From positions 1-6,488 of the forward strand of contig OMQY01000269.1 in the NCBI GenBank assembly GCA_900313405.1: a stretch of DNA of 6,488 bases, read 5' to 3'. This DNA comes from an uncultured Eubacteriales bacterium (GTDB lineage Bacteria > Bacillota_A > Clostridia > Saccharofermentanales > Saccharofermentanaceae). Shown here in pieces: positions 1,792-4,690 of this stretch. Position 1 is the stretch's first letter. Each line of letters opens with the position of its first letter. Under the pieces are notes generated by a model, which made no database searches, was not told the DNA's origin, and saw only the letters and a program-made list of their open reading frames with translations. A program made the translations under genes and the position numbers.

Positions 1792-2157
1792 ATGAAGGAA
1801 TATATCTCTTCTTACATAAGTGAGATCACCGAATACATGAACGGGAAGATGGCAGAAGACGACAGGTCAGGGATCGGGAAGGTCCTTGACGAGTTCGAGG
1901 TAAAGATAGCCTTCTTCCAGCATGAGAGGCTTATACATCTTATCGTTACGGTGCTTTTCGCTCTGATGGAGATCGCGTCCATATATGTTGCAGCAGTGAC
2001 ACTGAACCTCGTCTCCGAGATCCTGAGCATAATGTTCCTGATCCTTCTGGTGCCTTATGTGCTGCACTACTACTTCCTCGAGAACAGCGTGCAGCATATG
2101 TATCACATGCGTGATGACATCAGGAAGGCGTTAGAGCAGCTGCCTGATACGAAGTGA
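1792..2157 (+). CDS. Small two-helix membrane protein of unknown function
   Basis: I do not recognise this 121-residue protein. A charged, probably helical N-terminal stretch (1-45) precedes two hydrophobic segments, about 47-70 (LIHLIVTVLFALMEIASIYV) and about 74-95 (VSEILSIMFLILLVPYVLHYY). A short charged tail (HMRDDIRKALEQLPDTK) follows. The two helices should form a hairpin with both termini on the same side, probably the cytoplasm given the basic and charged ends. The ribosome binding site GGAGG (1779-1783) sits 8 nt before the ATG. The gene starts 18 nt after the radical SAM stop, so it is probably in that transcript. Its last 38 bp overlap the end of the opposing mechanosensitive channel gene. 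It has no motif that suggests an activity, so any link to the radical SAM enzyme is positional only. Confidence 0.85.
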   Translation: MKEYISSYISEITEYMNGKMAEDDRSGIGKVLDEFEVKIAFFQHERLIHLIVTVLFALMEIASIYVAAVTLNLVSEILSIMFLILLVPYVLHYYFLENSVQHMYHMRDDIRKALEQLPDTK

Positions 2158-3220
2158 GCCTGAAGTCCTTCAATGCTGCGTAGGCGAGCTCGCCCACATA
2201 TGAAGAATAAGCACAATACTCGTCATAATCGGCGTTATCCGTCGTGAAAAGGATCTCAACCGGAATACCGAAGCCGTCCTTGCTGTTGGCAGTCCTGACC
2301 TGGAGCGGGAATTCTGTCTTTATATGTTCCGATTCCATCAGTCTGTTCGCCAGCGCCTGCCTGTACCGGGTAAGGTTGGTGGTAGATCCGCCGTCCTCGG
2401 GCCTTATCGAAGAAGCGTCAACATAGATGGTCCTGACGACCTGTCTCTTACCTTCGGTTATCGTGTCATGATAGTTGACGAAAGCGTTGGATACAAAAGC
2501 ATATGCCGGAACGGAAATGACCGTGTTATTGAAAGCCGTGACCCTGACGGAGATAAGTGAGATATCAGTTACGGATCCTTCAACATCGAGCGACGGGATC
2601 TTGACCCAGTCACCGATCTTGAGCAGGCCTTCTGAAGTGATCTGCATACCTGCAACGAGGCCTAACAGAGCATCCTTGAAAACAATGGTAAGGATAGCCG
2701 TAAACGCACCGACACCGGATACGAGCACCACCGGATTCTGATTTATCAATACGGAAACAAAGATCATCGACAGGATGATGAATATAACGATCTTAACTAT
2801 CTGAAGAGGTCCCTTGATCGGTCTGGATCTGGATACTTCCTTGCTGCCGTAATAGTCGATGATGATATTGATAATGACATTTATGATCGACATGAGAGCC
2901 AGGATCATACCGAGAACGGATATCCTCTCGATGAATGACTGGAACCTCGGGATCCTGAAGGCGAATGCCAGCAGGAAGAAGAAAAGCAGGAAGGATGCGC
3001 ACTTGTTAGCCAGGCGGCGTGTTATGGCAATGCCGGACACCTGCTTGATAAAGTCTATCCTCGATCTCTTATGGATGAACCTGATCACCGCAACGATCAC
3101 GGTATATGCGATAAGCGTTATGACCAGTACGATCGCCAGATTGATAAGTACTGACAGGAGACTTCCCAATACTCCCTTGCCGGCCTGATCTTCTATCCAG
3201 GAATCAAGTTTATCGAACAT
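2120..3220 (-). CDS. MscS-family mechanosensitive ion channel, YbdG-like
   Basis: This is an inner-membrane channel of the MscS superfamily, whose members open under membrane tension to release solutes on hypo-osmotic shock. From the ATG at 3220 it has 366 residues. Hydrophobic segments lie at about 20-47, 73-90, 102-122 and 138-160. The pore-lining helix is about 163-190 (VLVSGVGAFTAILTIVFKDA, then LLGLVAG). The beta domain follows (about 191-250: LKIGDWVKI, EGSVTDISLISVRV, NNTVISVPAYAFVSNAFVNY). The charged stretch EGKRQVVRTIYVD after it, and a long C-terminal alpha/beta domain, resemble the YbdG/MscM type rather than minimal MscS. The start at 3220 has GGAGG (3229-3233) 8 nt upstream. An in-frame ATG at 3250 is rejected because it lies just upstream of the start predicted from the promoter. 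The gene is monocistronic here and its 3' end overlaps the opposing membrane-protein gene. Confidence 0.93.
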   Translation of the reverse strand: MFDKLDSWIEDQAGKGVLGSLLSVLINLAIVLVITLIAYTVIVAVIRFIHKRSRIDFIKQVSGIAITRRLANKCASFLLFFFLLAFAFRIPRFQSFIERISVLGMILALMSIINVIINIIIDYYGSKEVSRSRPIKGPLQIVKIVIFIILSMIFVSVLINQNPVVLVSGVGAFTAILTIVFKDALLGLVAGMQITSEGLLKIGDWVKIPSLDVEGSVTDISLISVRVTAFNNTVISVPAYAFVSNAFVNYHDTITEGKRQVVRTIYVDASSIRPEDGGSTTNLTRYRQALANRLMESEHIKTEFPLQVRTANSKDGFGIPVEILFTTDNADYDEYCAYSSYVGELAYAALKDFRLTSYQAAALTPS

Positions 3221-3253
3221 AGTAATACCCTCCGAAGGAAAAGATACCATTGT

Positions 3254-3296: not shown

Positions 3297-3355
3297 GCAC
3301 AACATATATATTATATCATGCGTGGACTTTTGTGCTAATCTGACAGAATGCACAA
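3297..3355. repeat. Three GCACAA half-sites between divergent channel and ncRNA promoters
   Basis: GCACAA occurs at 3297-3302 and 3350-3355 on the plus strand and inverted (TTGTGC) at 3330-3335. The last two form a dyad with a 14-bp gap. The outer two copies are 53 bp apart, about five helical turns. All lie in the 140-bp AT-rich gap between the channel promoter and the ncRNA promoter. Regulator binding is inference. Confidence 0.35.
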
Positions 3356-3388: not shown

Positions 3389-3417
3389 TTGTTACAATTG
3401 TGAGTCCATAGTATTAT
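3389..3417 (+). promoter_or_regulatory. Sigma-A promoter for the large structured RNA
   Basis: -35 TTGTTA (3389-3394) and -10 TATTAT (3412-3417) are separated by 17 bp. The predicted start, seven bases after the -10, is A3424. That is exactly the first base of the long-range closing helix of the RNA, which supports both calls. Confidence 0.75.
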
Positions 3418-3423
3418 TAAGGT

Positions 3424-4088
3424 AGCTCCAGGGAATACGAAGACAGATTCTTCGGACACGGAGGCCGCCTGAATCAGACGAGCGGAGCGCAGGGTAGAAC
3501 TTAAGATCCTTTGGATCGGAGGCGAAGCCGAAGAGACGAACCGAAGCACGGTAGCGATACTTGAGCAGAGGGGACACGAAGCAGAGGCTGGGAAGAGGAA
3601 GGAGATACGAGCTTAGCGATTGACGGGGTGGGTTTCCACTTACAAGTCGCAGGTTGTAACAGAATAGTTGATTCGGTATCTGATTCGCGTGCTTGTGAGA
3701 TGTCACAGCCGAGAGATAGGAGCCGAGGCTCGACGGATGTTACATCGGTTCGTGCAAACCGAGTAGCCGGTGTGGTTCACGCCAGAGGTTACACAAGGGC
3801 AGACGATTTGAGAGAGATTGGTGACAAGATTGATTTAATTGACTGAAGCTCTTAACCTACGGTGAACGTAAAGCAAAAGATTAAAAGCGGTGAATGGGAG
3901 ACATGAGTTGCACGGTGTGAGATTTGAGTCGCAGCAGTCAATGGTTCGTTGCGATATCAAGTGGGGCTCGTGGAGTTGGCAAAGGGCGACGTACAGTTCG
4001 AGGATGTGCTGCTCGAGAGGGCAGACGGAGATTGGGTTCGCTGGAGCTTTTCAATACAGGGGTTGCCTCCGAAGGGGTAACCCCTTTT
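3424..4088 (+). ncRNA. Large structured non-coding RNA, about 665 nt, family unassigned (ornate large RNA type)
   Basis: About 860 bp between two converging gene sets hold no credible protein but are rich in perfect short helices. A closing helix pairs AGCTCCAG (3424-3431) with CTGGAGCT (4041-4048) over more than 600 nt. Hairpins seen: 3438-3443/3449-3454; 3505-3509/3513-3517; 3521-3523/3527-3529; 3540-3543/3549-3552 (the last three inside 3500-3504/3561-3565, a multi-way junction); 3628-3631/3636-3639; 3640-3645/3654-3659; 3694-3698/3703-3707; 3720-3723/3728-3731; 3736-3739/3743-3746; 3747-3750/3757-3760; 3769-3774/3778-3783; 3858-3861/3867-3870; 3929-3935/3948-3954; and 4009-4014/4019-4024 with a GAGA tetraloop. 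The RNA is purine-rich, with repeated CGAAG and GGACACG segments. It has its own promoter and an intrinsic terminator. Size and architecture resemble ROOL, GOLLD or OLE RNAs; ROOL is my first guess given the likely clostridial host, but no diagnostic consensus was recognised. A structured RNA is likely; the family and function are unknown. Confidence 0.8.
4058..4088 (+). terminator. Intrinsic terminator ending the structured RNA
   Basis: GGGGTTGCC (4059-4067) pairs with GGTAACCCC (4076-4084) with one G-U pair; A4058-T4085 can extend the stem. The loop is 8 nt, and TTTT (4085-4088) follows. It points rightwards and ends 25 bp before the stop codon of the convergent phosphoribosyltransferase gene. 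On the minus strand no T-run follows the hairpin, so it mainly serves the RNA. Confidence 0.9.
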
Positions 4089-4113: not shown

Positions 4114-4662
4114 TTATTGCTTCTTCATCAGTTCGGCGATATAAGGAAGGTTACGACCGGTCTCCTTGATGTCGAGACCGTAGCCCAGGAGCCAGTTATC
4201 ATTGATCTCGAATCCGTAGTACTTGACGGGGATCGTCATGAGAAGCCTGTCGGGATTGAGCAGCATCGTCGCGAGAGTAATGTCACGCGGCTTCTTGGAT
4301 TCGAGGTTGGATATGAGATAAGCGGTGGTAAGACCGGTTCTGATAACATCCTCTACGATAAGTACGTGCTTGTCGGTGATATCGATATCAATGTCCTTGG
4401 TGATACGGACGACACCTGTCTTGGAAGTCGTATCCGGGATATTACCGAAGCCGATCATGTCGATCTGAATGGGAAGATCAATGGCGCGCGTCAGGTCGGA
4501 GAAAAAGTACAGTGATCCTTTGATAACGCCGACGACTATCAGTTCCTCTCCCTTATAGTCTTCCGTGATGCGCTTGCCGAGTTCTTTTATCCTCGCTGCG
4601 ATGGTCTCTTCGTCATATACGATGCGCTTGATCTCAATACTGTCGTTAAGAACTTTGGACAT
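4114..4662 (-). CDS. hpt: Hypoxanthine phosphoribosyltransferase homologue with altered catalytic motif
   Basis: HPRT enzymes transfer phosphoribose from PRPP to hypoxanthine or guanine in purine salvage. From the ATG at 4662 this protein has 182 residues, normal for bacterial HPRT. Family features: VIKGS with K48 (pyrophosphate loop), ITKDIDIDI, VLIVED (100-105), YYGFEI, LLGYGLD and RNLPYI near the C-terminus. Two active-site elements depart from the family. The PRPP motif reads EDVIRTG, with R108 (codon AGA) where EDxxDTG/DSG has the Asp that acts as general base in human HPRT. The flexible loop has IGFGN where most have SSYG, so the conserved Ser-Tyr pair is replaced. The start at 4662 is set by AGGAGG at 4668-4673, 5 nt away; a GTG at 4677 would put this site inside the gene. 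It lies 28 nt behind the kinase-like gene, in an operon with it. The fold is secure; the activity is not. Confidence 0.88.
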   Translation of the reverse strand: MSKVLNDSIEIKRIVYDEETIAARIKELGKRITEDYKGEELIVVGVIKGSLYFFSDLTRAIDLPIQIDMIGFGNIPDTTSKTGVVRITKDIDIDITDKHVLIVEDVIRTGLTTAYLISNLESKKPRDITLATMLLNPDRLLMTIPVKYYGFEINDNWLLGYGLDIKETGRNLPYIAELMKKQ

Positions 4663-4690
4663 ACTTTCCTCCTGCACGGGCAGAGCATTA

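Follow-up and report, generated by a model that had tools for sequence, protein, structure and literature searches.

A candidate new class of large structured noncoding RNA, often beside hpt, in relatives of Saccharofermentans

The stretch of DNA analysed here, 6,488 nucleotides of a rumen-type Clostridia bacterium, is referred to below as the window. Besides a tRNA-Thr, its genes specify a response regulator, a radical SAM protein, a small protein without a Pfam match, a cytidylate kinase-like protein and a flavodoxin, as well as an MscS-type channel and the phosphoribosyltransferase-like protein Hpt, whose nearest relative, at 95% identity, comes from a Clostridia MAG and several of whose further close relatives are titled Saccharofermentans. 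Between mscS and hpt, and antiparallel to both, lies a predicted noncoding RNA of about 625 nt (Table 1). The first-pass annotation had read this region as a large structured RNA equipped with a promoter, an end-closing helix and a terminator of its own, a reading that is supported here by conserved ends and by covariation. A minus-strand promoter aimed at mscS (TTAGCA-17-TATAAT, 3310-3338, with TG before the -10 box) overlaps the palindrome upstream of the RNA, so that the RNA and mscS promoters are divergent.

Table 1. Positions of the RNA, its signals, its helices and the flanking genes in the window.
Feature	Position	Strand	Basis or remark
MscS-type channel gene (mscS)	2120-3250	minus	
Operator-like inverted repeat TTGTGC-N14-GCACAA, upstream of the -35 box	3330-3355	n/a	Conserved in relatives
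Promoter: -35 TTGTTA (3389-3394), 17 nt, -10 TATTAT (3412-3417)	3389-3417	plus	Conserved among relatives in both strength and position
Body of the noncoding RNA	3424-4048	plus	Conserved ends, covariation, no conserved frame
P1, 5' strand AGCTCCAG	3424-3431	plus	Pairs with 4041-4048
P1b, GAAU with GUUC	3433-3436/4036-4039	plus	268/268 cells paired, no variation
P2, GCC with GGC	3464-3466/3985-3987	plus	ACC/GGU and GUC/GAC in relatives
P3, CGAGC with GCUCG	3608-3612/3966-3970	plus	Covariation
P4 hairpin	3616-3650 (P4a 3616-3621/3645-3650; P4b 3626-3629/3638-3641)	plus	Covariation
Rival helix to P7	3655-3661/3738-3744	plus	3740-3744 can pair with 3655-3659 instead
P5, UUGAUU with AGUCAA	3668-3673/3936-3941	plus	Covariation, 67-sequence set
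P6 hairpin, UGUGA-GAUG-UCACA	3694-3707	plus	Covariation, 67-sequence set
P7, UUACAU with GUGUGA	3740-3745/3915-3920	plus	Covariation
P8 hairpin, CGGUU-CGUGCA-AACCG	3746-3761	plus	Weak covariation
P1, 3' strand CTGGAGCT (= CUGGAGCU)	4041-4048	plus	Perfectly complementary to 3424-3431
Intrinsic terminator, 12-pair stem then T	4058-4085	plus	Predicted hairpin; terminator-like site conserved
hpt (Hpt)	4114-4677	minus	Name from Pribosyltran match

Transcription would begin from a housekeeping-type promoter belonging to the RNA itself, at or beside the first base of P1, with the predicted +1 at or very near position 3424. The promoter named in the initial annotation is present, but in the window alone it does not exceed chance, since nine such sites occur on both strands against 8.5 expected; it is among the relatives that it rises above shuffled sequence, where the best promoter scores at least 9/12 in 84 of 110 members (4.9 of 110 once the upstream DNA is shuffled) and stops 6-7 nt short of the first P1 base in 92 of 110 (20.2 in shuffles). 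It is this comparison, and not the window promoter by itself, that makes the transcription unit convincing. The perfect eight-base-pair helix said to close the ends of the RNA is found exactly where it had been placed, and shuffling the downstream DNA produced a perfect 8-nt partner for P1 20 times in 2000. The terminator described after P1, at which the RNA would end, is likewise in place, and a terminator-like site, by a loose rule, lies downstream in 103 of 111 members compared with 33 of 111 in shuffles. Across the class the ends read AGYUCCRRGGAAU and GGUUCGYUGGRRY, form P1, and stand at +1 and just before the terminator; both are present in all 67 profile-selected relatives, while the 111 distinct sequences with both ends were selected by those very motifs.

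The region was originally thought to encode no credible protein, and this holds: none of the three ORFs examined has a Pfam match, the length over them is not divisible by three in 42, 50 and 50 of 67 relatives, each stays open in 3 of 67, and the longest stop-free stretch occupies 0.57 of the length compared with 0.58 in shuffled sequence. A conserved frame, which would have spoken for a gene, is thus absent from the 67 relatives, and a protein-coding gene was rejected. An RNA read from the minus strand was rejected as well, given its weaker fold (z -2.2, compared with z -3.8 over 20 shuffles for the plus strand, whose folding energy across 3424-4088 is -227.1 kcal/mol) and the promoter and terminator on the plus strand.

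Of the 188 genomes in the host's order, which comprises relatives of Saccharofermentans, at least 114 carry a relative of the RNA, as does one genome outside it. With the window RNA alone as query, 78 of the 188 were found, which disposes of the early concern that there might be no homologues. A second query (L162), from one of six weak matches to the core model R1, contributed 28 more order genomes, namely 23, counting those six, and a compact group of five (~430 nt). Eight others with both ends (G034, G058, G062, G066, G072, G168, G169 and G184) were reached via a compact-group query and the 5'-end word, and gave members of 258-274 nt and very divergent ones. Three genomes with one end only (G031, G176 and G181; contig edge, position before an N run, or partner absent) stand outside the count, and about 71 of the 188 gave no member, whether because the RNA has diverged, the genome is incomplete or the RNA is truly missing. 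MAGs are the source of many members, and three carriers (KHP2, AB4001 and YAD3003) are not marked as such. R1, a covariance model of the core built from 33 sequences over window positions 3610-3776, matched 84 of 188 order genomes, six of them weakly, 83 of these 84 having just one match; the six weakly matched genomes have the whole architecture, in which about 575 nt separate the two ends and a TTGACA...TATACT-like promoter precedes them. In a sample of 391 genomes of the class, R1 matched eight, all members of the host's order, and the 5'-end word occurred in 14, compared with five, among the matches listed, for a reversed control word. Both ends were present in seven of these 14, one of which, G202, lies outside the order and is the single genome of its own order in the sample; R1 missed it, so the model is not sensitive outside the host's order. 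Second copies of the RNA stand in tandem in G058 (L344) and in G066 (L352/L353, where the 3' end of the second copy is not reached and one copy runs into a GATCAAAA repeat), and are dispersed in G100 (L103/L111).

The 111 distinct sequences range from 258 to 624 nt, and the strongly conserved blocks, GGGAAUAC, CCGCC, AAAGGG and GGUUCG, are kept across this entire range, while in the most divergent members (L331, L332, L344 and L352) little is recognisable beyond the ends. Five members are shorter than 280 nt, and in four of them (L328, L329, L334 and L336) a small hairpin whose loop contains GAAA fills the stretch from CCGCC to the P3 strand, whereas in the window this stretch is about 140 nt, which suggests that the size range comes largely from insertions between conserved blocks.

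Covariation was assessed in a profile-chosen set of 67 sequences, cut by word similarity from 90 and leaving out eight partial loci (L005, L067, L074, L088, L096, L102, L103 and L105), and in a set of 48 very different members cut from the 111; the 111 and 48 sets were chosen by the two-end pattern, and P1 is favoured there. Null alignments were simulated on the tree with an equal number of changes per column, 20 for the comparison of helices in the 67 set and 300 for each helix-by-helix test. Among the 67 relatives, three helices have at least four covarying pairs against none in the 20 nulls, and 16 helices of length 4 have at least two against a null mean of 2.55 and maximum of 5; the plain number of pairable helices does not exceed the null (689 compared with a mean of 733), and an all-pairs G-test yields only three significant column pairs, all Watson-Crick compatible. 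P1, whose covariation had been proposed as the decisive test, is kept in every one of the 67 and is paired in 469 of 469 cells over 3425-3431/4041-4047 with 37 two-sided changes (0/300 nulls), and in 336 of 336 in the 48 set (0/300). P1b is invariant, which leaves it outside the covariation support, and its pairing is plausible. P2 is paired in 134 of 144 cells with 18 two-sided changes in the 48 set and in 187 of 192 in the 67 set (0/300 nulls in each), and P3 in 211 of 220 with 16 two-sided changes (48 set, 0/300) and in 320 of 320 with two (67 set, 1/300). In the P4 hairpin, P4a is paired in 402 of 402 cells and P4b in 256 of 267, with 60 and 84 two-sided changes, in the 67 set, and in 269 of 278 and 144 of 184 in the 48 set, with 0/300 nulls throughout. 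The outcome that would have told against the structure, homologues lacking compensatory changes, is therefore not what is seen for P1, P2, P3, P4a and P4b.

Three further helices have 0/300 nulls, two of them in the 67 set only, namely P5 (390 of 398 cells paired, 10 two-sided) and P6 (329 of 335, 32 two-sided), the third being P7 (380 of 402, 22 two-sided). The P8 stem is paired in 311 of 335 cells with two two-sided changes (3/300 nulls), and its loop, 3751-3756, is complementary to 3909-3914 (344 of 392 paired, three two-sided, 1/300 nulls), a weakly covarying and possible pseudoknot. Of the more than a dozen perfect hairpins first counted, then, only some are conserved, and the helices with support are those given here. 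The support for the core helices P2, P3 and P4 is weaker when all possible helices are scanned, since in the 48 set P4a reaches E 0.05, P3 0.7, P2 1.2 and P1 3.25, and P1, P2 and P3 do not stand out among them. The top helix of that scan, 3488-3490/3890-3892 (E 0.025), crosses the model and was left out of it; it may be alignment noise or a pseudoknot. A helix at 3731-3734/3928-3932 looked fair at first and was dropped, because with offsets 3929-3932 it pairs in 52 of 265 cells, and the whole-alignment RNAalifold structure was not taken as the model.

Among the supported helices, P7 has a rival, which is paired in 446 of 469 cells with 11 two-sided changes (0/300 nulls). The two share bases 3740-3744 and are mutually exclusive, and each has compensatory change; folds constrained to the two states have -219.7 and -216.7 kcal/mol, 3 kcal/mol apart, against the free minimum of -227.1. 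This competition between conserved helices suggests switching, and it could also be that one of the two forms between two molecules and so drives assembly.

Upstream of the promoter lies a conserved palindrome, whose usual form in the relatives that have it is TTGTGCA-N3-TGCACAA at about -85 to -69 from P1, and whose geometry resembles that of Rex or CRP sites. It occurs with no mismatch in 23 of 72 relatives and with one in 17 of 72, compared with 0 and 0.8 in shuffles. The gap between TTGTGC and GCACAA is 5 nt in 19 of the 23 perfect palindromes and 14 nt in four, the window being one of these, so that the half-sites of these four stand 9 bp wider apart. A collection of non-viral loci totalling 1.08 Mb, redundant and with many copies of this RNA, contains 80 exact sites, and 79 of them are no more than 140 nt away from a recognised start of the RNA. 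This conservation suggests a putative operator, through which the RNA may be regulated.

Scans against Rfam 15, a library that presumably includes the models of OLE, ROOL, GOLLD and HEARO, returned no credible family for the window RNA at E<=5, none for 15 different, divergent loci, of which 12 have both ends, at E<=5 and 10, and none for the RNA in the nine loci carrying it among 15 scanned at gathering thresholds. The alternative of a new class, which the first-pass annotation had set beside membership of a known one, thus stands. Weak matches to SNORD67 in the window (3895-3933, E 4.1) and to sR32, Thr_leader, suhB and others in the divergent loci lie under the gathering scores and were taken as chance, and RNase P RNA (RF00010) and tmRNA (RF00023, over its cut-off) are each a separate gene in 10 of 10 genomes. 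At the level of titles and abstracts, the literature held no recognisable description of the RNA; the supplement of one study gives 16,482 putative models (PMC8040213), among which an earlier unnamed prediction of it is possible.

Taken as a whole, we put the probability that this is a new class of trans-acting structured noncoding RNA at about 85%, the scaffold role being the least certain part. In this picture P1 and P1b would hold the 5' and 3' ends closed, with P2, P3 and P4 forming a core in which the conserved blocks sit. The RNA would most likely work as a scaffold in the form of a stable RNA or RNP particle, whether or not proteins join it, with a chromosomal role in housekeeping or stress. 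RNA scaffolds and ribozymes alike have the look of a conserved core carrying expandable arms, and catalysis is an alternative to the scaffold role. A more elaborate proposal, that the RNA is a regulated switch with two exclusive helices, has its expression set by a regulator at TTGTGCA-N3-TGCACAA and replaces raiA in the order, strikes us as doubtful.

The last element of that proposal leads to a related explanation, which we regard as improbable, that the RNA is this order's counterpart of raiA/ModT, either a distant relative or an unrelated RNA with the same growth-transition job. ModT is described as self-standing, with a SigA promoter, a terminator and predicted pseudoknots, in Bacillota (PMC11706538), and the present RNA resembles it as a self-standing structured RNA with promoter and terminator. 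The raiA model (RF03072) was found in none of 188 order genomes, a count made with stricter filters, with at most 11 candidates scored per genome and with no positive control, nothing having matched in its controls; it does match two of 12 genomes, G348 and G557. Of three class genomes tested that had yielded no copy of the present RNA, these are two, the third, G193, having no match. By eye, the short words AGUCGCAGG, ACGGCGAG and AAGUAAGUCCG are common to both RNAs, but they differ in order, the end sequences differ, and the 209-position raiA model matches neither the window nor the 15 divergent loci at E<=5 or 10. Within raiA genes R1 reaches at best 4.1 bits (E 2.6, L355) and has no match in L354, and absence from one order is a single event. 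Replacement of raiA by this RNA is an intriguing but weak hint.

A ribozyme, in which GGGAAUAC, CCGCC, AAAGGG and GGUUCG would be an active site held by P1-P4, would account for the persistence of these blocks through so large a change in size, but their conservation is also compatible with protein binding and no ribozyme family matches; the 3' end runs directly into the terminator, which implies no cleavage product, and we give this explanation little credence.

The position of the RNA between hpt and mscS, opposite to both, could be taken to mean that it is an antisense or leader RNA for one of them, with hpt its usual neighbour in 76 of 94 judgeable members, a share inflated by the 33 of 111 members that were fetched through hpt. 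It overlaps neither coding region, however, and an MscS relative is present in only five of 52 listed hpt loci, one of them 3 kb off. Searched by blastn with the RNA, 38 of 58 hpt loci have a match next to the gene, and of 15 genomes without the RNA beside hpt, 12 carry it on another contig and three (G003, G015 and G016) gave no RNA. The 18 of 94 judgeable members that lie away from hpt make a cis element very unlikely, and with neighbours changing in this way, action in trans is the most likely mode for the RNA. An identity as phage or mobile-element RNA, in the manner of ROOL or GOLLD, to which its size, its large structured fold, the tandem copies in two genomes and the two dispersed copies in one might point, is hardly tenable and was rejected, for in searches with the window RNA and two short words no full match appeared, the RNA having none among 50,697 phage and 72,556 plasmid records, the 22-base core word being absent from viral contigs, and the 105 viral stretches with the 15-base 5' word all being without the 3' end.

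Few bacterial RNA classes are so large and structured, and several have proved surprising, as nanocages or membrane particles; OLE, ROOL and GOLLD form homo-oligomeric RNA-only complexes, and OLE works with OLE-associated proteins. Members as short as 258 nt and as long as 624 nt form a natural series that shows which parts of the present RNA are core, and together with a deep alignment, the candidate two-state element, the putative operator and the three carriers not marked as MAGs this series makes structure and function directly testable. Like HEARO, the RNA is structured and exceeds 300 nt in the window; HEARO accompanies an HNH endonuclease gene (PMC12286853), whereas there is no HNH endonuclease among the scanned window proteins, and no Rfam match. 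It shares with ROOL and GOLLD the character of a large ornate RNA, but those are reported from phage and prophage genomes, commonly close to tRNA islands (PMC12286853), while this RNA has chromosomal neighbours and, again, no match to their models. The OLE RNA is described as likewise ~600 nt, self-standing and highly structured, in anaerobic or extremophile Gram-positives, and the present RNA differs from it in having no cmscan match and in belonging to a class that shrinks to 258 nt. It would be new at the level of the family, with no relative among 4,227 Rfam families, and the general sort to which it belongs, the large ornate RNA of unknown role, has precedents.
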